The notes beneath the pieces are model-generated. The model saw only the letters and a list, made by a program, of their open reading frames with translations, ran no database searches and was not told the origin of the DNA. This document shows positions 33,945 through 57,072 of a DNA stretch of 64,000 nt, in pieces (the first letter of the stretch is position 1; each line of letters starts with the position of its first letter). The position numbers were made by a program, and so were the translations under genes. Origin of the DNA: an uncultured Lachnospiraceae bacterium (GTDB lineage: Bacteria; Bacillota; Clostridia; Lachnospirales; Lachnospiraceae); assembly GCA_947624875.1 (NCBI GenBank), contig CANQMA010000002.1, forward strand, positions 1 to 64,000, read 5' to 3'.

Positions 33945-36545
33945 ATGATTTTCAAAAAGAAAATAAAATATCGATATATTAAAAAAACAAAGGGTATCAT
34001 ATCTATTTTTTTGTGTCTCATTTTAACTCCATGTCTGACATTAGTGAGTTCATTAATTGAATATAGCAGATATCAAAATGCAGTCCAAACGACAAAAGAA
34101 GTGGTAAGTGTTTCTACAACTTCAACGTTATCGAATTATGATCAATATGTTAATAACCGCTTTGGACTGATGTCGGTATCTCAGGATATGAATATTGATA
34201 CGACATTTAAAAAATATAATCAAAATAATGTGAGATTAATGGGGGAAGCAGTCGATTTAGATTTAAATGATACAAATGCATCAGGAGCAGCGCCGCTGTC
34301 AGACCGGGGAATTATGCGCCAGCAGATAGTCGATTTTGGAGAGACTACTGTTCTTGCACATAGCGCTTTAAAAGACCTGAATATAGAAGATATTATAAAG
34401 CGGTTAGAAGATTCAAAAATAATAACAAACTTAGATAAAATTACTTCAAGTACAGCTGATTTGACCGGTGCAGTAAAGGATTTGGTAGAAGAAGGGGAGA
34501 CTTTTGTAAAAAAAATTAAAGATGTTGAGACAAAACTGAACGATGTTTCGACTAAAGAAAAAGATTTTGTCAAAAAGGTTCACAGTCTTTTACAGACAAT
34601 CAAAAAAAGTAAAAATGATCTATCAATAGAGTATGAAAAAGATACACAAGTAGTGAACATTCAATATACTGGCGATGAACAGATAAAATCTCTAAATGAC
34701 TATATTTATAGTTTATATGCAAAAAAAATTGACGAATTAATCACAGCGGGCATTGCATTAAAGAAAAGTTTAAATAGTGCATCCAGCGCAATTAATTCTT
34801 TAAGTAGTGCTTACGACAACCTAAAAGAGAAAGTGGACACTGCAAAAGATAAACTGAATAGTTTAACAAATTTATCTGAAGGTGATGGGAACAAAACGGA
34901 ATCAGAAAAAAATGTCATGCAGTCTGTTGAAAAAGGAAGTGACGTCTTAAAAAAAATTGTTGAGGAGATTTCAAAAACTGTACAGGAACAGGGAGAAAAA
35001 TTAAAAGAAGATACAATTAAAAATATTAAAGATGCAATTTCAGATACGATTGAACGAATCAAGACGGATGTGGGAATTGGTGGCGCGATTAATAAATTAA
35101 AAAATCTGTCGGTAGATGGGAAAATCAAAGTTATCAAAAATCTTCTTAAAGGTGACTTTAAGGGAACCATTTCCTCATTTCTTCCAGAGGGTTTTGCCAG
35201 TTTTAACAGCGCTGTAAAGACGGTGACGAAAGCAGTAAACGATGCAATTACAAAGGCAGCGGGTGATTTCAAAACCAAAGCCGAGTCTTCAATTAAGAAT
35301 GGATTGAAGGAGCTGTTAGAGACGGTACAAAAGTTGTTTCATTTAGACGTCTGTTTTAATGGAAACCTGAATGCTGTGCTCAGCGATGGTTGCTTCAGCC
35401 AATTAATCGGTGAAGAAAGCCCAAACCCATATGTCACAATGCTAAACGGAGTTAGCGGAATATTTTCCAATACTAAAGATTTTATAGAATCAATGGGAAG
35501 TTTTAAGTTTGTAGAAGCACTAAAGGCAATAAAAAAAGTATATGACTCCATCAGTACTGTATTGAAAGCCATGGGACAATTTATCAGAGATACTGTAAGT
35601 AATATATCCAGATTATTTGGCTATATTACTGGGGATATTGGGGCATTATACGAAGATTATATCATTGATGCTTATGCAGTACATAATTTTCCAAATCGAC
35701 TCAACTATAATTCGGGAGCCTCTTTGACAACTTTTGATTTTAATAAAATTCCTTATTCAGGCGGTTCAAACACTTCCATGTTGCCATCTTCCCTCTTGGG
35801 TATAAGCAGTTTATTTGACACACTAAGTGGAAAATCAGGAGAAGACAATATGTTTTGTGGCGCGGAATTAGAGTATATTCTTGCAGGAACAAAATCAGAA
35901 ATCTGTAATCAGGCCATTTCATTTATGAACCTATACATGCTAAGACTGATTTTAGACCTTGTGCCAATTTTTACTGACGAAGGAGTCAATGCAATGGCGG
36001 CTTCCGCAACCATTGCCGCATGGATTGTATACATTGCAGTTATTTTGGGTGAACCATTTTGCGATACAGTCATTCTTGTCAATGGCGGAGAAAGTTACTT
36101 GTTTAAAGGTAAATGTTATCTATCACCTACCGGCATTGTCGATCTTGGAAAAGATATTGCGTCTCTGGCAACAGAGAACGAAACAGTGAAAAATGAATTA
36201 ACAAATTATTTTGGAAACTCATTACAAAGAAAAATGAATCAACTGGCGGGCGGAGGAACATTTACAGGGAAGGATGGCAGATTCAAAGCAGATTATCAAA
36301 CACATATGCTGCTATCCTTGCTGCTCTCTGCAGATCCTGAAGATACATTGGTAAGAATAGCGAATATTATTCATATGGAATCCAAACAGTATTATAAAAA
36401 AGACGGAAAGAGTTTTAGCATTAAGAAGGCATATACTGCAGTTAAGTCAAATACAGACGTTACATTTAATGCATTCATAGATATTTTTAAATTTAATGGG
36501 TCTTCGATGTTTAATAAAACATTATTGGAGCAAAGAGGTTACTAA
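33945..36545 (+). CDS. DUF5702-like Tad-associated protein
   Basis: KKTKGIISIFLCLILTPCLTLVSSLIEYSRYQNA N-terminal TM typical of TadG/DUF5702-like proteins in Clostridia; long coiled-coil region; 866 aa. Confidence 0.7.
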   Translation: MIFKKKIKYRYIKKTKGIISIFLCLILTPCLTLVSSLIEYSRYQNAVQTTKEVVSVSTTSTLSNYDQYVNNRFGLMSVSQDMNIDTTFKKYNQNNVRLMGEAVDLDLNDTNASGAAPLSDRGIMRQQIVDFGETTVLAHSALKDLNIEDIIKRLEDSKIITNLDKITSSTADLTGAVKDLVEEGETFVKKIKDVETKLNDVSTKEKDFVKKVHSLLQTIKKSKNDLSIEYEKDTQVVNIQYTGDEQIKSLNDYIYSLYAKKIDELITAGIALKKSLNSASSAINSLSSAYDNLKEKVDTAKDKLNSLTNLSEGDGNKTESEKNVMQSVEKGSDVLKKIVEEISKTVQEQGEKLKEDTIKNIKDAISDTIERIKTDVGIGGAINKLKNLSVDGKIKVIKNLLKGDFKGTISSFLPEGFASFNSAVKTVTKAVNDAITKAAGDFKTKAESSIKNGLKELLETVQKLFHLDVCFNGNLNAVLSDGCFSQLIGEESPNPYVTMLNGVSGIFSNTKDFIESMGSFKFVEALKAIKKVYDSISTVLKAMGQFIRDTVSNISRLFGYITGDIGALYEDYIIDAYAVHNFPNRLNYNSGASLTTFDFNKIPYSGGSNTSMLPSSLLGISSLFDTLSGKSGEDNMFCGAELEYILAGTKSEICNQAISFMNLYMLRLILDLVPIFTDEGVNAMAASATIAAWIVYIAVILGEPFCDTVILVNGGESYLFKGKCYLSPTGIVDLGKDIASLATENETVKNELTNYFGNSLQRKMNQLAGGGTFTGKDGRFKADYQTHMLLSLLLSADPEDTLVRIANIIHMESKQYYKKDGKSFSIKKAYTAVKSNTDVTFNAFIDIFKFNGSSMFNKTLLEQRGY

Positions 36546-37131: not shown

Positions 37132-38775
37132 ATGAATAAAGATAAATTTTACATTGAAAATCAGGGAATATATACATATTTAACATATCAGTTATCCATC
37201 AATGACGATGTGGACACGATGGGACTTGGGATGATTACAAACAATCAGATCAATGGAATTGCCCCGGTCATATATACACAGATGGATCAGGATATTTTTC
37301 TGAAATACAATATTTCGGCAAGGGTATCTGTCAGTGACTTTTTTTCCGGCATGGTCAATCGAAAAAGACTGCTGGGTGTTTTTGCAAGTATTATGGATGC
37401 CATTATATCTGCTGAAGAATACATGATTGACTATGGGAACCTTCTTTTTGATTTAGATTACATCTATGTAGACGTCAGCACAAATAAAGCGGAAATGATA
37501 TGTGTTCCCATTATGAATAAAGAAATAGAAGGGGTAGACTTAGAACTTTTCTTTAAAAATATCATGTTTTCTACACAGTTTGATCAGACAGAAAATAGTG
37601 ATTATGTTGCAAAAATCATGAATTATTTGAACAGTTCACCAACGTTAAACCCGGTTGAATTTAAATTGATGATCAATCAATTGCAGAATGAGCATGGGAA
37701 AAATAATTTCAATCAGTCAGCGGCGCGCCGGCAGACAGCGCAAGTTGAAACAGGAACAAGACCACAGAAAGCAGAATCCGTCCCGCCAACACCGGCTTCT
37801 GCAAGCCCGGTGAATACACAGCCAGCGCAGGCAAACAGTCATAAACAACTGACTCCGCAGATGAAACCAGAGTTTCAGGGAAATGTGAACCCTGAGGTTA
37901 ATTCGCAGATAGACGAAATACAGAACAAGGGAAAAAAGAAAAATAAAAACAAAAAGAAGCAAACGGTAATCAGTGAAAACGTACCTATTTCAAATATAAA
38001 TGTGCCAAATCAAGAAACAACACGGCAAAGCGTGGAAAACATACAGAATAATCACGAAAAACGGATGTCATGGTTTTATCTGATGCAGCATTACAATAAG
38101 GAAAATGCAGCAATATATAAAGCACAGAAGGCAAATAAGAAAGCGGGAATAGTTCCGCCGCAGGCAAATGGGATTCCATCAAAAATGCCGGACAGTTATC
38201 AAACAATGAACAAGGTTCCGGTGAAGACACCGCCATTACAAAAACCGGATATCGGAATGAATATGCCCGGGCGCGGTATGGATGCTGTTCAAAGAACTGA
38301 GAAAGATTCTATGGTGAATTCCGCCATGGATAGAAATGTAATCAATGTTCAGGGAGCGCAGCAGGAACATACACTCGGACAGACAAAAGCTAATTTCGGA
38401 GAGACAGTTGTGTTGAATCAGGGAATGTCTAATGCGGGAGAGACAACTGTTTTAGGCGCCGGAGTACAGCAGATGGAAATTGTTCCGTTTTTAATCCGTT
38501 CCAAAAATAATGAAAAGATACTACTGAATAAGCCGGTATTTCGTATCGGTAAAGAAAAAAGTTATGTGGATTATTTTGTGAGCGATAATCCGGCGGTTAG
38601 CAGAAGCCATGCCAATATCATCACAAGAGAAAAAGACTATTTTATCATTGACACAAATTCTAAAAACCATACTTATGTGAATGGAAACATGATTCAAAGC
38701 AATACAGAAGTAAAAATTACACATGGAACGAAAATCCGGCTTGCAAATGAGGATTTTATATTTAACCTTTATTAA
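37132..38775 (+). CDS. DUF6382-like / FHA domain protein
   Basis: C-terminal FHA: FRIGKEKSYVDYFVSDNPAVSRSHANIITREKDYFIIDTNSKNHTYVNGNMI; Q/P/N-rich linker; ATG 37132 with RBS agagga. Confidence 0.88.
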   Translation: MNKDKFYIENQGIYTYLTYQLSINDDVDTMGLGMITNNQINGIAPVIYTQMDQDIFLKYNISARVSVSDFFSGMVNRKRLLGVFASIMDAIISAEEYMIDYGNLLFDLDYIYVDVSTNKAEMICVPIMNKEIEGVDLELFFKNIMFSTQFDQTENSDYVAKIMNYLNSSPTLNPVEFKLMINQLQNEHGKNNFNQSAARRQTAQVETGTRPQKAESVPPTPASASPVNTQPAQANSHKQLTPQMKPEFQGNVNPEVNSQIDEIQNKGKKKNKNKKKQTVISENVPISNINVPNQETTRQSVENIQNNHEKRMSWFYLMQHYNKENAAIYKAQKANKKAGIVPPQANGIPSKMPDSYQTMNKVPVKTPPLQKPDIGMNMPGRGMDAVQRTEKDSMVNSAMDRNVINVQGAQQEHTLGQTKANFGETVVLNQGMSNAGETTVLGAGVQQMEIVPFLIRSKNNEKILLNKPVFRIGKEKSYVDYFVSDNPAVSRSHANIITREKDYFIIDTNSKNHTYVNGNMIQSNTEVKITHGTKIRLANEDFIFNLY

Positions 38776-38803: not shown

Positions 38804-39571
38804 ATGAATTTTGTAATTTCAGCGACAACAGATATAGGAATAAGAAAAAAGACAAATCAGGACAGCCTGTCCGTGAAAACAATTCAGACAAATCAGGGAA
38901 GAATGGTTTTTGCAGTTCTCTGTGATGGGATGGGAGGATTGCAGCGGGGCGAGGTGGCAAGCGCCGCCCTGATTCATGCTTTCAACCAGTGGGTTACAGA
39001 ACAATTGCCTTCATTGTGTAATGCGCCGATAGAAGATTACATCATTCGGGAACAATGGATGGAGATTGCAGCCAAAATGAATGAAGAAATCAAACGGTAT
39101 GGAAATTATCATCAGGTGCAGCTGGGAACAACACTGGTTGCAATATTGATTACTGAAAAAAGGTATTACATCATCAATGTAGGAGATTCCAGAGCATATG
39201 AAATAAAAGATGAACTGATTCAATTGACGAAGGATCAGACTTTCGTAGAGCGAGAAGTTCAATTGGGGAATATGACAAGAGAACAAGCTGAAAAAGACAG
39301 TAGAAAAAATGTCTTATTACAATGTGTCGGCGCATCTCCGGAAGTATATCCGGAAATGTTTTTTGGAGATACAAAGCAAGATGCTGTATATATGCTCTGT
39401 TCAGACGGATTTAGACATGAAATCAGTACGGATGAAATATTCAATGGGTTCAAACCGGACAATCTATTAAATGAGTTGGATATGGAACGCAATGCGCGTC
39501 GGTTAATTGATATAAACAAGCAGAGACAGGAAACAGATAATATTTCAGTGGTTCTGGTCAGAACCTTTTAG
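38804..39571 (+). CDS. PP2C-family serine/threonine phosphatase
   Basis: TDIGIRKKTNQDSLSV, VLCDGMGGLQRGEVAS, NVGDSRAYEI, CSDGFRHEI, ETDNISVVLV. Confidence 0.93.
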   Translation: MNFVISATTDIGIRKKTNQDSLSVKTIQTNQGRMVFAVLCDGMGGLQRGEVASAALIHAFNQWVTEQLPSLCNAPIEDYIIREQWMEIAAKMNEEIKRYGNYHQVQLGTTLVAILITEKRYYIINVGDSRAYEIKDELIQLTKDQTFVEREVQLGNMTREQAEKDSRKNVLLQCVGASPEVYPEMFFGDTKQDAVYMLCSDGFRHEISTDEIFNGFKPDNLLNELDMERNARRLIDINKQRQETDNISVVLVRTF

Positions 39572-39579
39572 GAGAGAAC

Positions 39580-41253
39580 ATGTTACAGATAGGTCAGTTA
39601 GTAGATGGAAAATATAAAATACTGAACAAAGTCGGACAAGGTGGGATGAGTGTTGTTTATCTTGCAATGAATGAAAAAGCAAATAAACAATGGGCAATTA
39701 AGGAAGTCCGTAAAGACGGAGTAAAAGACTTTGAAGTGGTAAAGCAGGGTCTGGTAGTGGAAACCGATATGTTAAAAAGGTTAAGCCATCCAAGTCTTCC
39801 AAGTATTATAGATGTCATTGAGGATGAAGATACCTTCTTAATTGTCATGGATTATATTGAAGGAAATCCATTGAGCAAAATTCTCGAAGAGTACGGCGCG
39901 CAGCCACAGAAAAATGTGATTGAGTGGGCAAAACAACTTTGTGATGTGCTGGGATATCTTCACACCAGACATCCGGCAATTATTTATCGGGATATGAAAC
40001 CGGGTAATGTAATGTTAAAACCGGATGGAAAAGTCACCCTGATTGATTTTGGTACAGCAAGAGAATTTAAAGAAAAAAATCTGGCAGATACGACTTGTCT
40101 GGGCACGGTAGGGTACGCTGCTCCGGAACAGTTTGGTGGAATGGGACAGACGGATGCAAGAACAGATATTTATTGTCTTGGGGCAACATTATATCATTTA
40201 GTTACCGGCATGAACCCATGCGAGCCGCCGTATGAAATAAAGCCAATTCGTTCAATTAATCCTATGCTGTCAAGTGGTTTGGAACGAATTATTTTGAAAT
40301 GTACACAACGCAATCCGGAAGACCGGTATCAGTCCTGCGCGGAGTTAATGTATGCTCTGGAGCATTATGAGGAAATTGATGATATTTACCGGAGACGTCA
40401 GGTTAAAAAAATTGCGGCATTTGCGATATCCTCCATACTGACAATCGGCTGCGGTATAACATCCGCATGGGGATATACATCTGCTGAAAAAAAGAAAAGT
40501 GAAAACTATTTTGAAATTTTGAAAACTGCTGATTCTGCAGAAGATTATTACGATGCAATTCTGACAGACCCTGTGAAAAAAGACGCCTATATTCAACTGA
40601 ATGATTTTCTGATAGAGGATTATGTTTTGACTTCCGACGAGGGACAGAAGTTAAAGCAGTTACAGATCGGGTTGGACCAAAAGAATAACAGAGGGTTTTC
40701 AGAGCGCGTGGATGTATTTAATGAATTTAGGGAAAGTAACAGAGATGATTACATAGATGTTTGCTATGCCATTGGAGAGAGTTTTCTGTTTTCTTATGAT
40801 GTCAGTGTGGATATGGACCGGTATGTAAATGCAGCCAGTTGGTTTGAATCTGCAAAAGAAAAATATCCTATTACAGATATTTACTGTGATATGGCGGATT
40901 GTTTGGAAGCAATCAATCAATATGGAAACGCAAAAGTGAAACAGACAGAAAAAATGTATGAGCAGTATAAAGTGCTGTGGGAACAGATAAAAAAACTGGA
41001 ACAGAAGACAGAACAATCGGATGGAATTGATTCAAAAATACAGGTTTGGAATGAAATCAATAACATAATAAATCATAATATTATGCAATTTTTAGATATT
41101 ACAGATTTAGATCAGATTAAGGCTTTGTTAGAACAAATAGATCAACGAGCAGAGACGGTTAATGAATCTGTAGTGCAGGAAGATATTAAAAATCTGAGAA
41201 AGTCTATTTCAGAATCCATTAAGAAAATTAATTCGGCAGAAGAGATTTCATAA
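39580..41253 (+). CDS. Serine/threonine protein kinase with single TM and C-terminal non-PASTA domain
   Basis: LNKVGQGGMSVVYLAMN, WAIKEV, IIYRDMKPGNVML, LIDFGTAREF, GTVGYAAPEQF. Confidence 0.94.
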   Translation: MLQIGQLVDGKYKILNKVGQGGMSVVYLAMNEKANKQWAIKEVRKDGVKDFEVVKQGLVVETDMLKRLSHPSLPSIIDVIEDEDTFLIVMDYIEGNPLSKILEEYGAQPQKNVIEWAKQLCDVLGYLHTRHPAIIYRDMKPGNVMLKPDGKVTLIDFGTAREFKEKNLADTTCLGTVGYAAPEQFGGMGQTDARTDIYCLGATLYHLVTGMNPCEPPYEIKPIRSINPMLSSGLERIILKCTQRNPEDRYQSCAELMYALEHYEEIDDIYRRRQVKKIAAFAISSILTIGCGITSAWGYTSAEKKKSENYFEILKTADSAEDYYDAILTDPVKKDAYIQLNDFLIEDYVLTSDEGQKLKQLQIGLDQKNNRGFSERVDVFNEFRESNRDDYIDVCYAIGESFLFSYDVSVDMDRYVNAASWFESAKEKYPITDIYCDMADCLEAINQYGNAKVKQTEKMYEQYKVLWEQIKKLEQKTEQSDGIDSKIQVWNEINNIINHNIMQFLDITDLDQIKALLEQIDQRAETVNESVVQEDIKNLRKSISESIKKINSAEEIS

Positions 41254-41270: not shown

Positions 41271-41801
41271 ATGACATATGATACATATCGATATATTTTC
41301 TTTGGCGCCGCAATTCTATGTGCAGTCATGCTGATTGTAACAGTTATATTATTTTTTGCCCTTCATATCCGAAAGGCGATCGGTGATTTAACTGGAAGCA
41401 ATGCAAAAAGAGAAATTCAAAAGATTCGGCAGGAAAATGAGCAGACAGAAAATGCAAACAATCAAAAAAGAACCGGGAACAGAAGAAAAGGAAAAGCAGC
41501 AGCAGAAAATTCCGACAGCCCTCCGGATTATTCAAGAAACATGAACACAGGGGTCGTTACTGCTAAAATTGCTACCCAAAATTTAAGCCCGGACCATGAT
41601 ACAATACCAGATTCAGACAATGAAACAGAAGTGTTATCAGACATTTCATTGGATGAAACAGCATTATTAAGCCAATTCGAGGAACAGGATGAGGCGGCAT
41701 ACAATGAGACCGTTCTTCTAAATCAGAATAATACCGGAACGGTTGTATTTGAGATTGAAAGAGATATTACCTTCATCCATACAGATGAAGTGATTTGGTA
41801 G
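41271..41801 (+). CDS. Hypothetical single-TM protein with cytoplasmic tail of repeated ETxxL motifs
   Basis: N-terminal TM followed by HIRK; tail NETEVL..DETALL..NETVLL. Confidence 0.7.
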   Translation: MTYDTYRYIFFGAAILCAVMLIVTVILFFALHIRKAIGDLTGSNAKREIQKIRQENEQTENANNQKRTGNRRKGKAAAENSDSPPDYSRNMNTGVVTAKIATQNLSPDHDTIPDSDNETEVLSDISLDETALLSQFEEQDEAAYNETVLLNQNNTGTVVFEIERDITFIHTDEVIW

Positions 41802-41811: not shown

Positions 41812-42360
41812 ATGAGACCAAAAAACCTCAGAAATGGAAAGATGACAAAAAAACATTCTGGCGGACATTGGAGAGACTGTTTTTATCTGACAATTTCAAT
41901 CATCTGTTTTTTTCTGTTATCCGTCAGCATTTTTTTAATGTATTTTAACAGAAATGATTGGAATTACACTAATAAGACAGCTGGCATATTATTTTGGGCT
42001 GCTCTAATTGGTGGAGGACTTGCACAATTTATATTATGGCTGAGTTACAAAAAATGGATGCGGAAAAACAAGATTCGAAGAAAGAAAAAAAGAAAAGCAG
42101 GCGTTAGGTGCTTTTTTTCAGATAGGAATGCAGCCATTGCAGATATCATAATGTTTGCAATGATAATCGCTGTAGTGATTGTTTTTTTAACAGCAGGAGA
42201 ATTTGAGCGGTATATTGTGCTTTCATTGTTTATATTTTCTTTCTGCATGCATTGTATTTTAAACGGAAAACTCTATTATCATGCGTTAAATCAAGATAAC
42301 ATTTTAAATAGACTATGGGAAAAAAGGAGAGATTCAGAAAATGAAAGGATTGAAAAGTAA
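41812..42360 (+). CDS. Hypothetical membrane protein
   Basis: Four predicted TM segments with basic loops; ORF in operon order, overlaps the next start. Confidence 0.65.
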   Translation: MRPKNLRNGKMTKKHSGGHWRDCFYLTISIICFFLLSVSIFLMYFNRNDWNYTNKTAGILFWAALIGGGLAQFILWLSYKKWMRKNKIRRKKKRKAGVRCFFSDRNAAIADIIMFAMIIAVVIVFLTAGEFERYIVLSLFIFSFCMHCILNGKLYYHALNQDNILNRLWEKRRDSENERIEK

Positions 42361-45300
42361 AGGAAAAAATCGTGTAGTTGCTCTGCTTATGGCGCTCACT
42401 CTGTTAGTTGGAATGATTCCTGATTCAATGCAGCGCGTATTGGCTGAGGAAGAAGCCAATACAGTACAAGAGACTACAGAAGAGTCAACTGGCATTGTTG
42501 TGGAAGAAGAGGAAACAGAAACTGAGCCGGAAAAGGCGTCAGAAAAATCTGTGCCGGAAACAAAGGAGATGACAACACAGGAGAACTCTCTGCAGACAGA
42601 AGCAATCACTCAGAGCAAACCAAAAAAAACTGCAAACACTGCGGAAGGCGAAAAGACATCTGATTCGAGTTTTCGCTTTGTCATGCCGGACAAAGAGGAA
42701 GAAACGGTCAAAGAGTATAATGCAGTATTTCATACAGACAATACGATTATGATTGAGGCAAAAAGTGATGAAAATGCTGATAACGCCAGAACTATAACAT
42801 ATGAGATTGTTCAATTTGTCGACGGAAAGGGAAATACTCATGCAAAGGATGATGCAGAGACTGACTTAAATGATTTCATCGTACTTTCCGATCCAAATCG
42901 AGAGGGAAAGGTGAGTGTGCAGATTAAGGTTGCAGGAACGGCAACCATCTCTGCGACAATTGAAGGAAATGAACTTTTTAGTGAGACACAAATTTCCTGT
43001 CAGATTAACATCAGCAAAGCAACGACAGAGGTCAGATTCATTAAAGATGGAAACAAAATTGAAAATGACAGCGTTAAGTATGGAGAAAGTTATACCTTAA
43101 ATGCAGAGGCAGACCATGCAGAAAATATCGAATATTCCTTGAAAAATAAGCAGGACGAGGATTATGTAGAAGTTGGAAAAACAGGAATTGTCACTGTAAA
43201 AAAACCAAAGAATGAGGAAGTCATTATCACTGCAACAGCCACGGACAATCTGGGAAATTACGAAGGGACGGCAGATTTTCGTTTAAAGACAGAGAAAGCA
43301 GACAGAAACCTTGAGTTTGAAAGTGAAGCAATAACAGTAACTTATGGCGACAAAATACAGAATGTAATAAAGAATAATATTACTGGAAAAGACCCTGAAA
43401 AGGAAAGCAGGGGAACTTATACCGTTTGGGATAAAGATGGAAAGCAGGATACTGACGGAACCTATGCAACAGTGACTGCAGAGGGCGATATCAAATTAAA
43501 TGCAGACAAATTTAAAGATATTGAAGAGGAATACTCTATAACCGTAAAAGCAAATTTTGCAGAAGATGATTATTATAATGAAAAAGAAATCTCTTATAGC
43601 ATTACGGTAAAAAGAGCGGATGCGCCGGCACAAGAGTGCAAAGTGGATGGAACAAAGGAAGATGGAAGCGAATATTATCGCGGCATCGTAACAATCAATG
43701 CTCCGGAAGGCTATCAAATTAGTTTTGAGGATAATGTTGGAACAGCGGGATGGAGCGATTCGCTGAAGATTGAGGAAACACAGGAAAATATTTCATTTTA
43801 TCTAAAAAATTCAAATGGAGACATTACAGGGAAATTGTCCGTTGATGGAATTTATATCGATAATATTTTTCCTGAAATTCATTGTACCTGCCGGGAACTT
43901 GAATTGTATGAAAGAAATTATTTATATATAAATAAAAATGAAGAAATATCTGTTACAGCAACAGATAATGTAAAAATTTCAGTTTTAAAATACAAGGTAG
44001 ACGGGGGAGACTGGCAGGAAATCCGGGTCGGGATGGATGAAACCAGCATTCATGCACAAATTCCGATAACAGTCCAAAATAAAACGGAGAACATATCTTT
44101 TGCAGCAGTAGATGCGGCAGGAAACATTGGAGAAACGGTTACATGGGGAGAATACACACTTAATCCGCTGGATTTTCTAAATGTGGTTACGGATGATATT
44201 GCGCCACAATTAGAAATTACATATGATAGTCCGGAAAAAGAAGTGGAGGATGAAAAATACTATCAAAGTGATATGAACATCTCTCTGGAAATTACAGAGG
44301 CGAATTTTAATAAAAAAGCAGCAGTTGTTCAAATTTCTGATAATAATGGAGAAAGCTGGGAAACACAGAGTGTTGAATGGAATCAGTATAATACTAAAGG
44401 AGCGGATAAATGGGATGCCGTTGTTCCTATCACGACAGACGGCACGTATCAAATTAAAGTCAACTGCACGGATCTTGCAGGAAACAAAATGGATGAGGTT
44501 GTATCTTCTAAAGTAGTCATGGATCAAACCGCACCAAAAACTGCATTTCATCTGCCTGAGCCGAAGAATATTGTCAAAGGAGATTCTAAAATCAGTGGAG
44601 ATCAATATGGACTGTACGCAGATGATCCAGAGGCGGTTTTGTTCTATGGGGAAAAGGAAATCATTGCACAAATCAATATTTTTGAAGAGAATTTTGACGC
44701 AGACGGCGTAACTGTCCTGGTGAATGGCAGCAAGGCAGTCATGAGGGGAGACTGGACAAAGGCAGACAGTGACAGCGGATATACAAATGAGGTGACACTA
44801 GATAAGGAAGGGACGAACATTATCACAGTAGAGTGTCAGGACAATGCTGGAAATCGGATGGACGAGGTTCATTCTGCGCAAATTGTCATTGACACCAAAT
44901 CGCCAACGTCCGATATAAAACTGCTACAGCCAAAAAATGTTGTAAAAAATAACAAAAAAATAGAAGATGTGCTTCAATATTCAGATTATCAGACAGATAC
45001 ACAGGCAAAATTTTATTATGACCAACAGACAAGCGCAGAAATCAGCATAACTGAGAATTACTTTAATCCGCAGGATGTCACTGTGCTGGTAAATGGAAAA
45101 GCGGCTACATGGGCAAATGATGAATGGAGTAACTCTGAAGGCGGTAATGTGTATACAAATCAGCTTATTCTGAATCAGGAGGGCTCAAACATTATTACTG
45201 TTCAATATCAGGATTATTCAGGAAATAGGATGAGTGATCTCGTATCGTCCGAAATTATTATTGACACAAAAAATCCGGAGAAAAAAATAGATTTAAGCGA

Positions 45301-48300
45301 TAAACCGGTTAGCATTGACCAGAAAAATGCAGAAAACGAGTACGTTCCGGTAGAGAATTTAGATGCTTGGGAACAGTATATAGAAGATGTAGATACACGC
45401 ATAAACTATACATATGGTCCAAAGGTCATTTTAGAGGTTACAGATGATAACTTTGATCCGGATGGAGTGACACTCATGCAGAATCAGACTGACATCAGTA
45501 CACAGTGCCTGTGGAATAAGCAGGGTCCATCAAATGTATGGAGAACTGAAATTCAGATAAATCTGGGTGGTAAATATCAGTTTCAGATTTTGGGAAAAGA
45601 TTATGCGGGGCATGAGTTTTCAGGAACTTCTGCATATATTGTTGTCAATATGGATTCCATCACGAGAAGCGTTACACTCAGCCAGCCAAAAAAAATAGTG
45701 ACAGACAATCAGGGAACAGAAAAGGAAACGAATGAAGAAAACCTGAAATCGGAAAACCAATCAGAAAAATTTTATTATAGTGGGGAAATGGAACTGACTG
45801 TCGAAATAACAGATACCGACACGCTCTATACTGAAGATAATTTTGGTAAGAGTGTAGACATCAAAGTTAATTCGGAAACCATACAGACTGAAAAAGCAGC
45901 ATGGAAAAAATCCGGAAGCACCTATCAAAATACAATTAAACTCAAAACTTCAGGGGAGTATGTGATTACCATTGCACATCAGAATCATTTTGCAGTGCAA
46001 ATGGATCAGTATACCTCACCGACCATTATCATTGATGGAAGTCGACCGGAACGGACAGTGATGTTAAAACGGCCTAATAAGGTTGTTCAGGACGAAAAAG
46101 GAACAGAGATTGATTACACGGAGGACCTGGGGAAAGAAGAGACGATAACAAATCGGTTCTATTACAGGGGACAGGCAGACATTGATTTGTTAATTACGGA
46201 AGAGAATTTCTATGAGGGAGACGTAGAAGTAGAAGTCAACGAGGAGCCGTACACTCTTAGTCAGGAGTGGAACCACGAAGAGGACGGCAGAAACACGAAC
46301 CACATCACGTTTGAAGAGAATGGAACTTATGTCATCACAATGAATTATACGGATAAGTCCGGAAATATTATGGATAGTTATACGTCTCCGGTGATTATTG
46401 TAGATGACAAAAAACCGGAACGCACGGTGATGTTAAAACAGCCTAATAAGGTTGTTCAGGATGAAAAAGGAACAGAGATTAAGTACACGGAGGACCTGGG
46501 AAAAGAAGAGACAATAACAAATCGGTTCTATTACAGGGAACAGGCAGACATTGATCTGTTAATTACGGAAGAGAATTTCTATGAGGGAAACGTAGAAGTA
46601 GAAGTCAACGAAGAGCCATACACTCTTAGTCAGGAGTGGAACCACGAAGAGGACGGCAGAAACACGAACCACATCACGTTTGAAGAGAATGGAACTTATG
46701 TCATCACAATGAATTATACGGATAAGTCCGGAAATATTATGGATAGTTATACGTCTCCGGTGATTATTGTAGATGACAAAAAACCGGAACGCACGGTGAT
46801 GTTAAAACAGCCTAATAGGGTTGTTCAGGATGAAAAAGGAACAGAGATTGAGTACACGGACGATTTGGGGAAAGAAGAGACAATAACAAATCGGTTCTAT
46901 TACAGGGAACAGGCAGACATTGATTTGTTAATTACGGAAGAGAATTTCTATGAGGGAGACGTAGAAGTAGAAGTCAACGAGGAGCCGTACACTCTTAGTC
47001 AGGAGTGGAACCACGAAGAGGACGGCAGAAACACGAACCACATCACGTTTGAAGAGAATGGAACTTATGTCATCACAATGAATTATACGGATAAATCCGG
47101 AAATGTTATGGATAGTTATACGTCTCCGGTGATTATTGTAGATGACAAAGAACCGGAGCGCACGGTGACCTTTACGAAACCGCAAAATATTTTAGACCAA
47201 AATAACAAAAAAATACCAGACGCAGCAGAAACGGATAATTTTAATGAAAAATATGCTGATGACTCTACAAAAACATTCTATTATAAAAAGGACAGCGATT
47301 ATGCGGATAATGGGAATGTGGTAAATGTTACATTCAATATCAGCGAAATATATTTTTACGGAAAAGACGTCGAAGTTGAGGTCAATGGAAAGGAATATGC
47401 TCTTGACCGGGAGTGGGATAAAAATGGAGATATATATTCTAATATCATTCAATTTCAGGATGAAGGAGAATATGTTATAACAGTGGAGTATACGGATAAG
47501 TCTGGCAACGCAATGAAGATTTATACTTCACCGAAAATTGTTATTGATGCAACCTGCCCGGGAAGAAAAGTTCAATTGTCGAAGACAAGTAGTGGAGAAA
47601 TCCTTAAAAAATCAGAAAACGGAACATATGAAGTACAGGCTTATGACCAAAAAGTAAATGCATATTCTGAAAACAGAGGAGATCGTTTTTATTATACAAA
47701 AGATATTCCTGCCAGACTGACAATGTATCTTGATGAAAAATATTTCTTTACGGAAAACCAATCTGATGTAAAGATACAAATTACTAGAAATGGAGAAAAT
47801 TATTCGGTAGATAAACCAGTCTGGGAAAAAACAAAGAATGCAAATGAATGGACAAGCACATTAACAATTGCTGAAGAAGGCTTATATGTCGTTCGGATTA
47901 CCTATCAAGACCCTGCCAATAATGAAATGGAGGAATATATTTCACCTGAAATTTATGTGGATTCCTCTGCGCCGGAAATGAAAACACAATTAACAAAACC
48001 AAATAAGGCTGTTTATGGCAATAGTGCGTCGGACGAATTAAGAAATCATGTCATCGAAGGAGAGAGTTTAGAACAGTTATTGTCTACAGACGGCGAAAAT
48101 ATTTATAATGATGAGAAGTTTTATTATAATGACAAAGCGGAGATTCAATTAAATATTAGTGAGATAAATTTCTACACAGATGATGTAGAGGTAGAAATGA
48201 CATGGAAACCGGATAATAATCCGGAAACGCAGGAAGTCACAGTAAATAAGGATAATCTGATGAACAAAACAGAGATAGGCAGAATATATCAGACAATCTA

Positions 48301-51300
48301 TAATGCTGCAGACTGGTCACTGGTAAATAATGTTTACATGAATAAGATTTCCCTTACAGAAAATGGAATTTATAAGATTAAGATTTCTTATAAGGATAAA
48401 TCAGGAAATCTAATGAAAGAGTATATCTCACCAAATATTTTTATTGACAAAAATACTCCGACGGACATGGCTGTAAGTTATAAGGACACACCGACAGCAG
48501 ACTACTACTATTATAATGACAGAGTGGAATTAGAATTAAGCGCTCAGGATTCCATTTCAGGTATTGACCATTTTGAGTGGGTTTATGTGGCTGAAAAAGG
48601 AATTAGTGACATTAATTTTAATGGGGATGTCAAGGATGTCATTTCCTACTTAAATGAAAATATTACTTATGAAGATTGGGAGGGCTCTAGCGCAACGGCG
48701 AAATTTGTTATTCCAATACCGCCAACTGATAATGCTGTGCAAAAGACATTAGAGCAACTCCGAGGAAAAATTAAATTTACAGTATGGGACAGAGCACAAA
48801 ATAAATCTGATTATACGGACGAAAAGAATTCTATTGTAGTGGACAATGTCAGCCCTGCAAGAACTGTAAAATTGTCACAACCAAAGCAAGTAGTAAATCA
48901 GAATACATTAAATACCAAGAATACTTATTCGCTGGATACCGGAACAGGTCAAAGCGGAAATAGCGGGTCTGTTTTGTATTATGATGAGAAGGCAGTAGTA
49001 TCTTTGAATATTAATGAAGCAAACTTTTATGCTGAAGATGTTCATGTTTATGTCAATGGACAGAAGAAAGACGTCTCATGGGTACATAAGGACAAGGATA
49101 ATTATGCTGCAAATGTGGATATCACCGGAGATGGGGATTATATTGTACGAATGACTTATACGGACCGGTCCGGAAATACGATGCTCGAATATGTGTCAGA
49201 TAAAATTGTAATTGATACAGTGAAACCGGTATTGAAGGTTGATTACGACACGGATAATCCGGAGAATACAATTAATGGAAGACAATATTTTAATAAAAAC
49301 AGAAAAGTTGTAATCACTGTAACGGAACACAACTTCCGTGCAGACGATATACAAGCTGAACTGAGTGCTAAAGATGTTACCGGAAAAAATATTGATGTCA
49401 AATTGAAAGGCGCAGATGGAAGCGAAATTATGGCAAGCAAGCTGGCAGAGTATCTTTCTGACAGAGGACATTGGAGCAGCAAAAATGATGTCCGTACTGC
49501 AACATTTACATATTCTTCTGATGCAAATTATACTTTTGATATTTCTTATGCAGATTTGGCACAACGGAAAGCGGCTAATTATAAGAAAGATTATTTTACG
49601 GTAGACAAGAAAGCTCCTTCTAAATTAAAAGTGACTTATAGTACATCCGTATTGGAAAATATTATGAAAAATATTTCTTTTGGCTATTACAATGCAAAAG
49701 TAACAGTAACAATTAGCGCTAAAGATAATATTTCGGGTGTCAATCGGTTTGTGTATAGTTATTTTAATAGTAAAAATGTAAGCAGCGTCAATGCAGAATT
49801 AATTGATAAAGCTATTAAGAATGCTAGAATTACGCAGAAAGGAAATCTGTTTACCGCACAGTTTAAAATTCCGAAAGATGTATTAAATAAAAACAATCAG
49901 TTTAATGGTAAAGTAGAATTTGCTTCCTATGACAGGTCTGAAAATAGTCAGGAAAAACAAAGTAATAAGAGGATTGTTGTAGACAATATTGCTCCAAAGA
50001 TGGATATTCAATATAACAAACCGGTTTCAAGCAGAGGAAATATTGACTATTATTCAGGTAATATTGAGGCGTCTATTCATATAAAAGAAGCAAACTTTTA
50101 TACACAAGATGTAAAAATCTTAGTTTCTAAAAATGGAGGTCGTGGAAATGGCATCGCTGCAAAATGGAGTAATCAGGGCACAGATGATCACACCGGAAAA
50201 TTTACTCTAAGCGGTGACGGGGATTATGTTATTTCTATTCAATATAAGGACCGTTCATCTAATCAGATGAAGGATTATAAGTCAAAGCAGATGACAATTG
50301 ATACCAAAGCGCCGACATTGAATGTCTCAAAAATTGTAGCAAATTCTGCAAATAAAGATAAGAAATACCAGTTTGTTATTACTGCAAATGATCAGAATTT
50401 TGATATATCTTCGTTTAAACCAAAATTGTCATATATTACAAGAAATGGCAATGGTAAATTTATTGAAAAGACTGTTTCATTCGGTAATGTTAAAACATCT
50501 GGAAAGAATTATATTATAACTGTGGATAATTTGGAAACTGACGGAGTGTATACGTTGACCAGCAGTATCCGGGATTATGCAAATCATTCTTATGGAAAGA
50601 TAAAGCTTGATGATGGAAAAGAATACAACTCTGTTAATTTTTCAATCAATCGTAAAGGATCAATCTTTACAGTCGACGATGAAACAATGAGCAATGTCAA
50701 TAAATATTATATTTACAGTGTTGGCAGTGATGTAGTTATTAAGGAGACAAATGTTGACCCAATACAAAAATATTCCGTAAAATTAAACAATAAGACATTG
50801 ACGGAAGGAAAAGATTTTACGACATCGCAAAGCAATGGGAAAAACCAGTGGAGCGTAAGAACATATGTTATTAAGAAATCGCTTTTCGAACAAGAGGGTA
50901 AATATCAGATTGCTGTAGAATCTATTGATAAAACGGGAACCATGGCATATAGTGATGTAAAAAATCTGGATTTGTCTTTTGTAGTAGACCAGAAAGCTCC
51001 AGTTTTGACGTTTAGCGGACTTGAAAATGGCGGGCGCTATCAGGTACAGGAACAGACGGTTGTTGTAGGCGTTTCGGATGATGGTGGAAAACCATATTCT
51101 TTCACGGCAATTGTGTTAGACAGAAATGGAAATCCGTTAGTGGACGCAAATGGAAAAGATATTAGTGTACGGTTCTCCTTAAAAGAAGAAGAACTTGAAA
51201 AATATCTTATGCAAAATAATGGAAAAATCACATTCACCATTCCGGAAGGTTATGAAAATCAGGTCAAAATTATTTGTGATGATTATGTTCAAAAAGCTGA

Positions 51301-51475
51301 TACAAATGAATATAATCAACTGTTTGAGCGTGTCACAGTATCTTTGAGCAGTTTCATTATCTTCTATGCAAACAAACCACTGTTTTATAGTTTGATTGCG
51401 GTCATTCTGGTTCTTTTGGCCGGCACCATTATAATCATATGGAAGCGGAAAAAAGGCAAAAAACAAGCAGCCTGA
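42341..51475 (+). CDS. 3044-aa Ig-like-repeat surface protein with signal peptide and C-terminal TM anchor
   Basis: Signal peptide KNRVVALLMALTLLVGMIPDSMQRVLAEE; about 15 modules with signature I.E.NFY..DV.V.VN....W......G.Y.I...Y.D.SGN.M..Y.S..I.ID...P; C-terminal PLFYSLIAVILVLLAGTIIIIWKRKKGKK. Confidence 0.9.
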   Translation: MKGLKSKGKNRVVALLMALTLLVGMIPDSMQRVLAEEEANTVQETTEESTGIVVEEEETETEPEKASEKSVPETKEMTTQENSLQTEAITQSKPKKTANTAEGEKTSDSSFRFVMPDKEEETVKEYNAVFHTDNTIMIEAKSDENADNARTITYEIVQFVDGKGNTHAKDDAETDLNDFIVLSDPNREGKVSVQIKVAGTATISATIEGNELFSETQISCQINISKATTEVRFIKDGNKIENDSVKYGESYTLNAEADHAENIEYSLKNKQDEDYVEVGKTGIVTVKKPKNEEVIITATATDNLGNYEGTADFRLKTEKADRNLEFESEAITVTYGDKIQNVIKNNITGKDPEKESRGTYTVWDKDGKQDTDGTYATVTAEGDIKLNADKFKDIEEEYSITVKANFAEDDYYNEKEISYSITVKRADAPAQECKVDGTKEDGSEYYRGIVTINAPEGYQISFEDNVGTAGWSDSLKIEETQENISFYLKNSNGDITGKLSVDGIYIDNIFPEIHCTCRELELYERNYLYINKNEEISVTATDNVKISVLKYKVDGGDWQEIRVGMDETSIHAQIPITVQNKTENISFAAVDAAGNIGETVTWGEYTLNPLDFLNVVTDDIAPQLEITYDSPEKEVEDEKYYQSDMNISLEITEANFNKKAAVVQISDNNGESWETQSVEWNQYNTKGADKWDAVVPITTDGTYQIKVNCTDLAGNKMDEVVSSKVVMDQTAPKTAFHLPEPKNIVKGDSKISGDQYGLYADDPEAVLFYGEKEIIAQINIFEENFDADGVTVLVNGSKAVMRGDWTKADSDSGYTNEVTLDKEGTNIITVECQDNAGNRMDEVHSAQIVIDTKSPTSDIKLLQPKNVVKNNKKIEDVLQYSDYQTDTQAKFYYDQQTSAEISITENYFNPQDVTVLVNGKAATWANDEWSNSEGGNVYTNQLILNQEGSNIITVQYQDYSGNRMSDLVSSEIIIDTKNPEKKIDLSDKPVSIDQKNAENEYVPVENLDAWEQYIEDVDTRINYTYGPKVILEVTDDNFDPDGVTLMQNQTDISTQCLWNKQGPSNVWRTEIQINLGGKYQFQILGKDYAGHEFSGTSAYIVVNMDSITRSVTLSQPKKIVTDNQGTEKETNEENLKSENQSEKFYYSGEMELTVEITDTDTLYTEDNFGKSVDIKVNSETIQTEKAAWKKSGSTYQNTIKLKTSGEYVITIAHQNHFAVQMDQYTSPTIIIDGSRPERTVMLKRPNKVVQDEKGTEIDYTEDLGKEETITNRFYYRGQADIDLLITEENFYEGDVEVEVNEEPYTLSQEWNHEEDGRNTNHITFEENGTYVITMNYTDKSGNIMDSYTSPVIIVDDKKPERTVMLKQPNKVVQDEKGTEIKYTEDLGKEETITNRFYYREQADIDLLITEENFYEGNVEVEVNEEPYTLSQEWNHEEDGRNTNHITFEENGTYVITMNYTDKSGNIMDSYTSPVIIVDDKKPERTVMLKQPNRVVQDEKGTEIEYTDDLGKEETITNRFYYREQADIDLLITEENFYEGDVEVEVNEEPYTLSQEWNHEEDGRNTNHITFEENGTYVITMNYTDKSGNVMDSYTSPVIIVDDKEPERTVTFTKPQNILDQNNKKIPDAAETDNFNEKYADDSTKTFYYKKDSDYADNGNVVNVTFNISEIYFYGKDVEVEVNGKEYALDREWDKNGDIYSNIIQFQDEGEYVITVEYTDKSGNAMKIYTSPKIVIDATCPGRKVQLSKTSSGEILKKSENGTYEVQAYDQKVNAYSENRGDRFYYTKDIPARLTMYLDEKYFFTENQSDVKIQITRNGENYSVDKPVWEKTKNANEWTSTLTIAEEGLYVVRITYQDPANNEMEEYISPEIYVDSSAPEMKTQLTKPNKAVYGNSASDELRNHVIEGESLEQLLSTDGENIYNDEKFYYNDKAEIQLNISEINFYTDDVEVEMTWKPDNNPETQEVTVNKDNLMNKTEIGRIYQTIYNAADWSLVNNVYMNKISLTENGIYKIKISYKDKSGNLMKEYISPNIFIDKNTPTDMAVSYKDTPTADYYYYNDRVELELSAQDSISGIDHFEWVYVAEKGISDINFNGDVKDVISYLNENITYEDWEGSSATAKFVIPIPPTDNAVQKTLEQLRGKIKFTVWDRAQNKSDYTDEKNSIVVDNVSPARTVKLSQPKQVVNQNTLNTKNTYSLDTGTGQSGNSGSVLYYDEKAVVSLNINEANFYAEDVHVYVNGQKKDVSWVHKDKDNYAANVDITGDGDYIVRMTYTDRSGNTMLEYVSDKIVIDTVKPVLKVDYDTDNPENTINGRQYFNKNRKVVITVTEHNFRADDIQAELSAKDVTGKNIDVKLKGADGSEIMASKLAEYLSDRGHWSSKNDVRTATFTYSSDANYTFDISYADLAQRKAANYKKDYFTVDKKAPSKLKVTYSTSVLENIMKNISFGYYNAKVTVTISAKDNISGVNRFVYSYFNSKNVSSVNAELIDKAIKNARITQKGNLFTAQFKIPKDVLNKNNQFNGKVEFASYDRSENSQEKQSNKRIVVDNIAPKMDIQYNKPVSSRGNIDYYSGNIEASIHIKEANFYTQDVKILVSKNGGRGNGIAAKWSNQGTDDHTGKFTLSGDGDYVISIQYKDRSSNQMKDYKSKQMTIDTKAPTLNVSKIVANSANKDKKYQFVITANDQNFDISSFKPKLSYITRNGNGKFIEKTVSFGNVKTSGKNYIITVDNLETDGVYTLTSSIRDYANHSYGKIKLDDGKEYNSVNFSINRKGSIFTVDDETMSNVNKYYIYSVGSDVVIKETNVDPIQKYSVKLNNKTLTEGKDFTTSQSNGKNQWSVRTYVIKKSLFEQEGKYQIAVESIDKTGTMAYSDVKNLDLSFVVDQKAPVLTFSGLENGGRYQVQEQTVVVGVSDDGGKPYSFTAIVLDRNGNPLVDANGKDISVRFSLKEEELEKYLMQNNGKITFTIPEGYENQVKIICDDYVQKADTNEYNQLFERVTVSLSSFIIFYANKPLFYSLIAVILVLLAGTIIIIWKRKKGKKQAA
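46052..47158 (+). repeat. Three near-identical 369-bp (123-aa) tandem modules
   Basis: Copies begin at 46052, 46421 and 46790 (RTVMLK[RQ]PN[KR]VVQDEKGTEI...), each 369 bp. Confidence 0.95.
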
Positions 51476-51939: not shown

Positions 51940-53301
51940 ATGAGAGAATCGAGAGCATTTCGGCGGATTGTCCTGTTACTGTTGATTACAGTGAATGTTG
52001 TGGGACAGACTGCTATTTTTGCATATTTTTGGGTGACGCATTATAATCTGGGAATTGACAGACAGTTTGTATTTAGAGGACATATGGTGATGTTCCTTCT
52101 CTATGCGTTACTGTTTTCTATTTTTGCCAATGTATACGGCGTCTTCAAAATCAGACGCCTGCAATATTCAAATTTAGTTTTTTCTCAGATTCTGGCACTT
52201 CTTTTTACCAATGTAATCGAATACTTTGAAATTTCTCTTCTTTCCCTGCAGATGGTATCGCCGGCCACGCTGATTGGCATGACTTTTGACAATATTCTTT
52301 TTGGGCTGGTCTGGTGTTGGATTGAAATAAAGGTTTACCGCTGGCTATATCCACCAAAAGATATGCTGCTCATATACAGCGACAGGGATCCTGACAATTT
52401 AGTCAAAAAAATCCGGACAAGAAACGATAAATATATTATTACCGCGGAAATGCACTGCGACACGGATCCGGAAGAACTGCACCGCGCGATTTTAAGCCAT
52501 CAGTCCGTGATTCTCTGCGATATTCCAAGCGGAAAAAGAAATCAAATCATTAAGTATTGTTATTCCCATGATAAGAGGGCGTATATTACGCCAAAACTGT
52601 CTGACCTGATTATTATTGGCTGCGAGCAGAATACACTGTTTGATTCTCCGCTCCTTGTTTCAAAAATAGAGGGGCTGAAGTGGGAGCAGGCGGCGGCAAA
52701 ACGGGTGATGGATATTGTCATTGCGCTGTTGCTGAGCGTTCCAACGCTGATTGTGATGCTGTTTGTTGCCATAGGAAATTTAATCTGGGATAGAGGTCCG
52801 CTCTTTTATACGCAGCCACGGCTGACCAGGAACGGAAAAGTATTTCATATCCTAAAATTCCGCAGCATGAAAGTGAATTCCGAAACAGAGGGCGCCCGCC
52901 TCGCCATGAAAGATGATGACCGGATTACAAAAGTGGGAAAAGTTCTTCGCGCAACGCATTTAGACGAACTGCCGCAGGTCTTTAATATTTTGATGGGACA
53001 GATGTCAGTCGTTGGACCGAGACCGGAAAGACCGGAAATTGCGAAAGAATATGAGGAAGATATTCCGGAATTTTCATTTCGTTTGAAAGTGAAAGCAGGA
53101 TTGACGGGATATGCTCAGGTTTATGGAAAGTATAATACGACGCCATACGATAAATTGAAATTGGATTTATACTATATCCAGCACTATAAATTTTATATGG
53201 ATATCCAGTTGATTCTGATGACCTTCAAGATTATGTTTTTAAAGGAAACCAGTGAAGGGGTAGACCAGAATCAGAAAACTGCAAAACTTGAAAAGAAATA
53301 G
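51940..53301 (+). CDS. Polyprenyl glycosylphosphotransferase (bacterial sugar transferase)
   Basis: Multi-TM N-terminus; KRVMDIVIALLLSVPTLIVMLFVAIGNLIWDRGPLFYTQPRLTRNGKVFHILKFRSM, LDELPQVFNILMGQMSVVGPRPERPE. Confidence 0.95.
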   Translation: MRESRAFRRIVLLLLITVNVVGQTAIFAYFWVTHYNLGIDRQFVFRGHMVMFLLYALLFSIFANVYGVFKIRRLQYSNLVFSQILALLFTNVIEYFEISLLSLQMVSPATLIGMTFDNILFGLVWCWIEIKVYRWLYPPKDMLLIYSDRDPDNLVKKIRTRNDKYIITAEMHCDTDPEELHRAILSHQSVILCDIPSGKRNQIIKYCYSHDKRAYITPKLSDLIIIGCEQNTLFDSPLLVSKIEGLKWEQAAAKRVMDIVIALLLSVPTLIVMLFVAIGNLIWDRGPLFYTQPRLTRNGKVFHILKFRSMKVNSETEGARLAMKDDDRITKVGKVLRATHLDELPQVFNILMGQMSVVGPRPERPEIAKEYEEDIPEFSFRLKVKAGLTGYAQVYGKYNTTPYDKLKLDLYYIQHYKFYMDIQLILMTFKIMFLKETSEGVDQNQKTAKLEKK

Positions 53302-53309
53302 GTGAGTGT

Positions 53310-54125
53310 ATGACAGAGTATTCTGTACTAATGTCCGTTTATTATAAAGAAAAATCTGAATATCTGCGAACCGCCATAGAAAGTATGCTGAGTCAAAGCA
53401 TCCCGCCAAATGACTTTGTGCTGGTCTGTGACGGTCCGCTTACTGACAGCCTGGAAGAAGTGATTGCAAGTTATCAAGCATCTGCTCCAGGCTTATTCAA
53501 TGTATACCGTCTTCCAAAAAATGTTGGGCTTGCAAAGGCGCTGAATCACGGGATTTTACAATGCAAAAATGAAATCATTGCCCGTATGGATAGCGATGAT
53601 ATCAGCGCGCCTGACCGGATGGAAAAAGAGTTGAGAGTGGTTGAAGAACAGAATGCAGACCTGGTGGGCGCAAATGTAATTGAATTTTTTGGAGAGGTCA
53701 CGAATACAGGCGGCGTCAGACAGGTTCCGGAACATCGTGGGGAAATGCTCCGCTTTGCGAAAAAGAGAAGTCCGTTTAACCATCCGACAGTGGTATATAA
53801 AAAGGAAGCGGTGATCAGAGCCGGACTGTATGGAGATTACCGGTTTTTTGAGGATTATCAGTTGTGGGCGTCCATGTTAAAGCAGGGCTGCAAAGGGTAT
53901 AATATTCAGGAAAATCTGGTTTATATGAGAGCCGGCGAGGGAATGTATGAACGCCGTGGAGGACTTCGCTATCTGAAATGCATTTTTCGTTTTCAAAAAC
54001 GCTTGAAAGAACTTGGTTACACAAATGAATTTGAGTTTATAGGAAATGTTATTTCCCGTTCACTTGTCAGTCTCCTTCCGGGAAATTTTAGGAAAACAGT
54101 TTATCAAAAGATTCTGCGCAGATAA
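53310..54125 (+). CDS. Glycosyltransferase family 2
   Basis: YSVLMSVYYKEKSEYLRTAIESMLSQS, FVLVCDGPLTD, IIARMDSDDISAPDRMEKE. Confidence 0.93.
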   Translation: MTEYSVLMSVYYKEKSEYLRTAIESMLSQSIPPNDFVLVCDGPLTDSLEEVIASYQASAPGLFNVYRLPKNVGLAKALNHGILQCKNEIIARMDSDDISAPDRMEKELRVVEEQNADLVGANVIEFFGEVTNTGGVRQVPEHRGEMLRFAKKRSPFNHPTVVYKKEAVIRAGLYGDYRFFEDYQLWASMLKQGCKGYNIQENLVYMRAGEGMYERRGGLRYLKCIFRFQKRLKELGYTNEFEFIGNVISRSLVSLLPGNFRKTVYQKILRR

Positions 54126-54185
54126 AAAAGGACGGAAGTCTTAGTTGATCAGTTTTGATACAAAAAGCGGAGAATGGAGAAAAAC

Positions 54186-56511: not shown

Positions 56512-56550
56512 AACCTTTAGGAAAGCGATGTTATAAAACCGATAAAAATG

Positions 56551-56579
56551 TTGACTATTTTCGACAGAATCTATACAAT
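56551..56579 (+). promoter_or_regulatory. Sigma-A-like promoter upstream of tagD
   Basis: TTGACT (56551-56556), 17-nt spacer, TACAAT (56574-56579). Confidence 0.65.
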
Positions 56580-56633
56580 GGTTGAGGAAAGTCGCAAGTT
56601 TAAATAAATGGAAGGAAATGAGGAGAATTAATT

Positions 56634-57041: not shown

Positions 57042-57072
57042 GATTTTCCGTGGTACAAGTTGGAGGAATCAA

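Follow-up and report, generated by a model that had tools for sequence, protein, structure and literature searches.

A T-x-[V/I/L]-L motif shared by a small membrane protein and a neighbouring FHA protein: a candidate phospho-threonine docking code behind a Tad pilus operon in Lachnospiraceae

Reading of phospho-Thr by FHA domains is known from several signalling systems. OdhI reads its own pT15 in structure 2KB3, with hydrophobic residues at +2 and +3, the +3 residue being a crucial recognition feature; the FHA domain of DgcB reads its own N-terminal pThr peptide, with the hydrophobic +3 residue in a pocket (PMC6733907). In the T6SS, PpkA phosphorylates TssL at its cytoplasmic Thr14 and Fha then binds (PMC3953482). 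TraF is reported as a pseudokinase and a homologue of EssB/YukC, in which the pseudokinase domain makes contact with FHA of the T7SSb ATPase (PMC13037476). Genes of related types are described for T7SSe in the available text of PMC11217815: TseJ carries DUF6382 plus FHA, TseF is a PPM phosphatase, TseD is a kinase, TseI is, via TsdI, an Ig-like protein with a signal peptide and a C-terminal TM helix, and TseK has a single TM helix and a cytoplasmic stretch described there only as short and unstructured. The same text, as far as available, discusses linkage to Tad for T7SSg and T7SSh only. No literature on TseK, TseJ or DUF6382 was found beyond PMC11217815, and the literature searched names no substrate or reader site for these kinase/FHA cassettes.

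The sequence analysed here, the window, is the whole stretch of 64,000 nucleotides at positions 1 to 64,000 of contig CANQMA010000002.1 (assembly GCA_947624875.1), from an uncultured Lachnospiraceae bacterium. Its interval 26000-51475 holds a T7SSe-type signalling cassette behind a Tad pilus operon. Upstream of the cassette, the operon comprises what we take to be TadZ, TadA, two TadB/C-like proteins, a prepilin peptidase, pseudopilin-type proteins, DUF5702 and TadE. The Tad genes are followed, in order, by genes for a DUF6382-FHA protein, a PP2C, a membrane Ser/Thr kinase, a 176-aa protein, a 182-aa multi-TM protein and a 3044-aa repeat protein. The features are:

37132..38775, + strand: DUF6382-FHA protein, TseJ-like (Pfam PF19909 E=2.9e-18, PF00498 E=1.6e-13; AlphaFold models, Foldseek)
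38401..38415, + strand: FHA-linker motif a, E-T-V-V-L, with its Thr 27 residues before the FHA start (spacing table)
38440..38454, + strand: FHA-linker motif b, E-T-T-V-L, with its Thr 14 residues before the FHA start
38485..38772, + strand: FHA domain, starting PFLIRS; pocket residues GK, SR.H and N.T retained; OdhI match E=4e-4
38804..39571, + strand: PP2C-type phosphatase, TseF-like (PF13672 E=2.1e-12)
39580..41253, + strand: membrane Ser/Thr kinase with extracellular domain, TseD-like (PF00069 E=1e-46)
40087..40107, + strand: kinase activation loop DTTCLGT, a T-x-x-L
41271..41801, + strand: 176-aa TseK-like membrane protein, with orthologues at 65 loci
41622..41636, + strand: tail motif 1, E-T119-E-V-L (NETEVL), in a column nearly invariant in alignment A3
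41655..41669, + strand: tail motif 2, E-T130-A-L-L (DETALL), in a column nearly invariant in alignment A3
41706..41720, + strand: tail motif 3, E-T147-V-L-L (NETVLL)
41748..41798, + strand: conserved C-terminal block of the 176-aa protein, FEIERDITFIHTDEVIW, which is not TxxL (alignment A3)
41812..42360, + strand: 182-aa multi-TM protein, a neighbour in many cassettes
42341..51475, + strand: 3044-aa secreted repeat protein with signal peptide and C-terminal TM helix, TseI-like (likeness to TsdI/TseI as described in the available text of PMC11217815)

Ser/Thr kinases, phosphatases and FHA proteins adjoin Tad pili and T7SS variants throughout this family. A profile of the kinase extracellular domain has matches in 140/397 family genomes, and at one locus (L048) the cassette comes immediately after genes for a TseC-type ATPase and WXG100-type proteins. 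The window genome yielded no T7SS ATPase (one full-length FtsK/SpoIIIE match, on contig 20, plus a stray match of 21 positions), an absence that is not absolute, completeness of the genome being 84%. Nothing within the window matched the WXG100 HMM, and the locus is of Tad type. That T7SSe signalling genes occur at a T7SS-free locus suggests that this cassette probably acts as a portable regulator for envelope machines and not as part of the secretion apparatus. Downstream, 51940-63453 appears by eye from the sequence to be a cell-surface polymer cluster, with a sugar transferase, a glycosyltransferase, a cytidylyltransferase and several large CDP-glycerol glycerophosphotransferase-like proteins.

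The 176-aa protein has a single N-terminal TM helix (approximately residues 11-33), a positively charged cytoplasmic flank and a disordered-type tail with three E-T-x-x-L motifs; it matches no Pfam family above cut-off. The motif tail is predicted to be cytoplasmic by the positive-inside rule, since the hydrophobic helix is followed by a basic stretch, HIRKAIGDLTGSNAKREIQKIR. In the available text of PMC11217815, a single TM helix and a short, unstructured portion on the cytoplasmic side are given for TsdH and TseK alike, so the 176-aa protein may be TseK-like or TseH-like. The initial annotation had proposed five motifs, and all five stand where it placed them: NETEVL, DETALL and NETVLL in the tail, and GETVVL and GETTVL directly before the FHA domain, with Glu at -1 and Leu at +3 of the Thr in 5/5. 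In composition-preserving shuffles of the window tail alone, at least three ET..L are reached with p ~1e-5 and at least three T.[VIL]L with p ~2e-5; the values for the window FHA linker are 0.0007 (ET..L) and 0.004 (T.[VIL]L). A look-alike, GETTVLA, is found at 34338-34358 in the secreted DUF5702 protein, outside the cytoplasm. It was considered as a sixth motif and dropped, being unconserved in the nearest orthologue (L044) and probably due to chance.

To 65 tail proteins gathered by HMM from fetched loci, the same counts were extended; the HMM was iterated on full-length proteins, tails included, and may favour motif-bearing members, although motif-less ones (L121, L128, L154, L159) were recovered too. 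Alignment A3 of the tails is poor (mean column identity 18%), and the T-x-x-L columns are among the few that are nearly invariant, with variants such as PTEVL, STDVL, GTTVL, VTTVL, ATMVL, ETELL and TTKLD around the fixed core. T..L is seen 223 times versus 44.0 in shuffles (z 30), and T.[VIL]L 145 times versus 7.9. The Ser equivalents behave differently: S..L, at 34 versus 39.3, shows no enrichment, and not one S.[VIL]L occurs in the 65 tails (0 versus 7.1 expected from shuffles). T...L, T....L and L..T are not enriched over shuffles in the same set, while T.L is, because of the hydrophobic +2. Position by position around the Thr, Leu at +3 is the strongest signal (z 27.6), Val at +2 is next and Glu at -1 is weak (z 4.5). 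The pattern persists in 25 tails representing one per 50% kinase identity, with T..L at 74 versus 14.3 shuffled, T.[VIL]L at 47 versus 2.5 and S.[VIL]L at 0 versus 2.4. Three T.[VIL]L within 60 aa occur in 22/65 tail proteins and in 0/1161 other proteins of the same loci, the background set drawn from the fetched loci.

As read from these sequences, the code is T-x-[V/I/L]-L, with Glu at -1 as a lineage preference. ETxxL as the code was rejected because Glu is at -1 in just 73/223 T..L sites. The expectation that ETxxL would be conserved within variable linkers was thus borne out for the T-x-[V/I/L]-L core but not for the Glu, kept in about a third of cases. Non-conservation in orthologues, named at the outset as one outcome that would count against the proposal, did not occur, and the motif is kept across distant relatives in scrambled tails. 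Chance, or the low-complexity composition of Glu/Thr-rich tails, could account for some of the numbers, as some tails are tandem repeats (e.g. L164, L127) and inflate the counts. However, it is contradicted by the shuffles, the non-redundant representatives and the neighbouring proteins, and lineages that differ in their repeat unit all retain T-x-phi-L. This explanation was rejected as refuted by the composition-preserving shuffles, and its probability is negligible.

Tail motifs are absent in some orthologues (L121, L128, L154, L159) and nearly absent in L163. These five are 71-96 aa long, with the TM helix kept and the motif tail lost, and most of their loci yielded no DUF6382-FHA gene. A second conserved block, FxIxxxIxxIHTDExI, closes the tail proteins and is retained in the motif-tail-less L128, L154, L159 and L163.

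The DUF6382-FHA protein consists of an N-terminal pseudokinase-like domain, a long disordered-type linker and a C-terminal FHA domain. In 81/92 linkers, versus 24 expected, T..L lies in the 50 residues that immediately precede the FHA domain, and the linker Thr mostly stands 33-35 residues ahead of the FHA xGK. Across 69 divergent proteins of the DUF6382-FHA type (mean column identity 27%), the Thr of linker motif b occupies a column conserved in at least 90%, on par with the pocket residues S82, R83, N104 and T106 (alignment numbering). The pocket itself (K/R, S, R/K, N) is intact in 87/93. By sequence, linker plus FHA matches only OdhI structures in the PDB (2kb3, 2kb4, 4qcj, 8p5x; E=4e-4), and the Foldseek neighbours of the FHA domain include the DgcB FHA with its own N-terminal phosphopeptide, EmbR with a phosphopeptide, and FhaA. 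An intramolecular switch is suggested by the OdhI homology together with the fixed spacing, although that spacing would fit a self-switch or head-to-tail linking alike.

In the AlphaFold models the FHA core has pLDDT 97-98 and the linker approximately 45-65. With values this low in the linker, the models do not place the motif within the FHA fold, and its interpretation as a structural strand of that fold was discarded as unsupported. The motif might also be a phosphorylation-independent peptide, for example a beta-strand or hydrophobic hook docking on the pseudokinase domain or on pilus parts. Hydrophobic residues at +2 and +3 would suit such a peptide, and T7SSb offers a contact between the EssB pseudokinase and an FHA domain that presumably needs no phosphorylation (available text of PMC11217815). 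However, the linker copy is not modelled as structured, and the use of Thr but never Ser in the hydrophobic context (145 versus 0) is difficult to account for unless pThr is read, which makes this explanation highly improbable.

The DUF6382 domain (37132-37758) is modelled by AlphaFold with a kinase-like fold (pLDDT 92.8). Its best PDB match is the N-terminal domain of TraF, with a TM of ~0.5 and high rmsd, and its catalytic residues were judged by eye. The kinase-like model and the match to TraF, a reported homologue of EssB/YukC, suggest, with moderate support, that the FHA protein is a pseudokinase-FHA scaffold. DUF6382 is present in 289/299 genomes of the family. Two DUF6382 matches are listed for the window genome, the best of which (E=1.6e-42) is much stronger than that of the window copy in the Pfam scan (E=2.9e-18). 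The genome also has a second FHA protein of 249 aa (contig 18, L179:6564-7313), lacking DUF6382 and located amid housekeeping genes.

Tail motifs are found at 41/43 loci with an FHA gene and at 16/22 without one (Fisher p 0.015, a value that ignores phylogeny and to which contig ends add noise). Within a locus, tail and linker motifs resemble each other more than in permutations (37 loci, p<1e-4, with phylogeny not fully corrected), and this holds among 15 representatives (p 0.005). Tail-linker pairing is also seen in three other families of the same class, where at L191 QTVIL/QTVVL is shared by the tail and FHA proteins. The two motif sites are nevertheless separable, as there are motif-rich tails without a linker motif (L174, L175, L195) and Tad-only loci with the linker motif and no tail protein. 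Five loci (L119, L151, L158, L160, L161) have the kinase, the phosphatase and a motif-bearing tail but no FHA gene nearby, so that the reader is elsewhere or the motif has another use; a DUF6382-FHA protein encoded at a Tad locus in another part of the genome might be the reader there.

Such loci without an adjacent FHA gene favour the possibility that the motifs are kinase substrate sites only, with phosphorylation altering tail charge or membrane association and no FHA reader involved. The kinase, usually with the phosphatase, adjoins the tail gene, and bacterial kinases of the PknB/PrkC type favour Thr followed by hydrophobic residues, which could yield the motif. This explanation does not account for the same motif at a fixed distance before the FHA domain, found even in Tad-only loci without an adjacent kinase, or for the co-occurrence of tail motifs with the FHA gene, and a strict Leu at +3 with Ser wholly absent looks more like the mark of an FHA domain than like that of a kinase acting by itself. 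It is therefore considered unlikely. Rather less probable still is that the phosphorylated tail is read by another FHA protein, either the small one on contig 18 or, in T7SSe relatives, the FHA domains of TseC, with the TseJ-like protein using only its own linker motif. The window genome does encode that second FHA protein, and TseC FHA domains retain the phospho-Thr consensus in the available text of PMC11217815. However, the tail and linker motifs of one locus are alike beyond chance, the tail motif and a neighbouring FHA gene tend to occur together, and no TseC-type ATPase was found in the window genome.

Docking of the tail on the FHA domain of the DUF6382-FHA protein is thus the preferred reading. 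The original idea of a pThr docking code with a +3 determinant, shared by tail and FHA linker, looks largely right and, on the sequences, better supported than when first put: the motif is conserved in variable linkers and Thr-specific, its clusters are absent from neighbouring proteins, and it goes with covariation, FHA-gene co-occurrence and an intact pocket. Its Glu at -1 is no part of the code, the two sites are separable, and the motif system, first tied to this operon, extends to T7SSe-type and Tad-type loci. We put the probability at approximately 0.7 that the 176-aa protein bears in its tail an array of phospho-Thr docking sites, T-x-[V/I/L]-L, written by the kinase, read by the FHA domain and reset by the PP2C phosphatase.

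What we infer for phosphorylation by the operon kinase, FHA binding and an effect on the pilus is as follows. The membrane kinase would sense something extracellular and phosphorylate Thr in the tail, the DUF6382-FHA protein would bind pThr via the pocket of its FHA domain with the +3 Leu as specificity residue, and the PP2C phosphatase would reset the phosphorylation state. Once bound, this pseudokinase-FHA protein would be held at the membrane beside the Tad pilus, or beside the T7SSe secretion machine in relatives, where it may serve as an assembly or regulatory hub, as T6SS Fha does on phosphorylated TssL. Once phosphorylated, the linker motif is probably a rival of the tail for the FHA pocket, in a self-switch of the OdhI/GarA type, or else a link joining FHA proteins head to tail. 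GarA docks on PknB, and the kinase activation loop, in this clade mostly DT[TV]xLGT, is itself a T-x-x-L; by analogy the active, phosphorylated kinase might be an additional FHA dock, which is a lead only. More tentatively, and with less confidence than in the array itself, the kinase-written multivalent pThr array on a small membrane adaptor, with as many as 13 T..L sites in one tail, could cluster a self-linking pseudokinase-FHA scaffold at the membrane and so switch Tad pili and T7SSe machines on or off. It would then be an envelope-signalling module general to Clostridia that passes between two export machines of unrelated kinds; we find this possible but doubtful.

FHA phospho-Thr signalling is known, and the T-x-[VIL]-L code of tail and linker is undescribed in the literature searched. 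The motif supplies exact candidate residues and predicts which proteins talk to each other. With Thr never replaced by Ser, T-x-[VIL]-L is also a readable code by which further members of the pathway may be found by sequence.

Compared with the described systems, the window resembles the TseJ/F/D/K plus TseI set of T7SSe, as given in the available text of PMC11217815, in having a DUF6382-FHA protein, a PPM phosphatase, a membrane kinase, a single-TM protein with an unstructured tail and a large Ig-like envelope protein, but here the cassette stands behind Tad pilus genes, in a genome that yielded no T7SS ATPase. It resembles the GarA/OdhI switch in that the window FHA domain matches only OdhI in the PDB by sequence, its pocket is intact, and a conserved pThr-type motif with hydrophobic +2 and +3 lies in a flexible stretch N-terminal to it. 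It differs from GarA/OdhI in its motif (TxphiL versus ETTSVF), in the fusion of the FHA domain to a pseudokinase-like domain, in the motif array on a second protein, and in its setting, a pilus/secretion locus as opposed to TCA-cycle enzymes as target. DgcB shares the self-peptide N-terminal to the FHA domain, but is a diguanylate cyclase without a membrane array. EssB/YukC and TraF are approached by the DUF6382 domain, which models with a kinase-like fold and has the TraF N-terminal domain as best PDB match; in contrast to them, the window pseudokinase-like domain is without a membrane anchor and is fused to FHA in one chain. The PpkA-PppA-Fha system of T6SS is also alike, with a membrane kinase, a PP2C and an FHA protein encoded beside a machine (in the window, the Tad genes upstream). 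There the site is one Thr in TssL (DLPpTVVEI, with Glu at +3), whereas the window has several +3 Leu sites on a small dedicated adaptor, and the proteins are otherwise unlike. Nevertheless, the two are close in logic, with a cytoplasmic Thr on an inner-membrane component bound by an FHA protein when phosphorylated, as reported for TssL and predicted from the sequence for the window.
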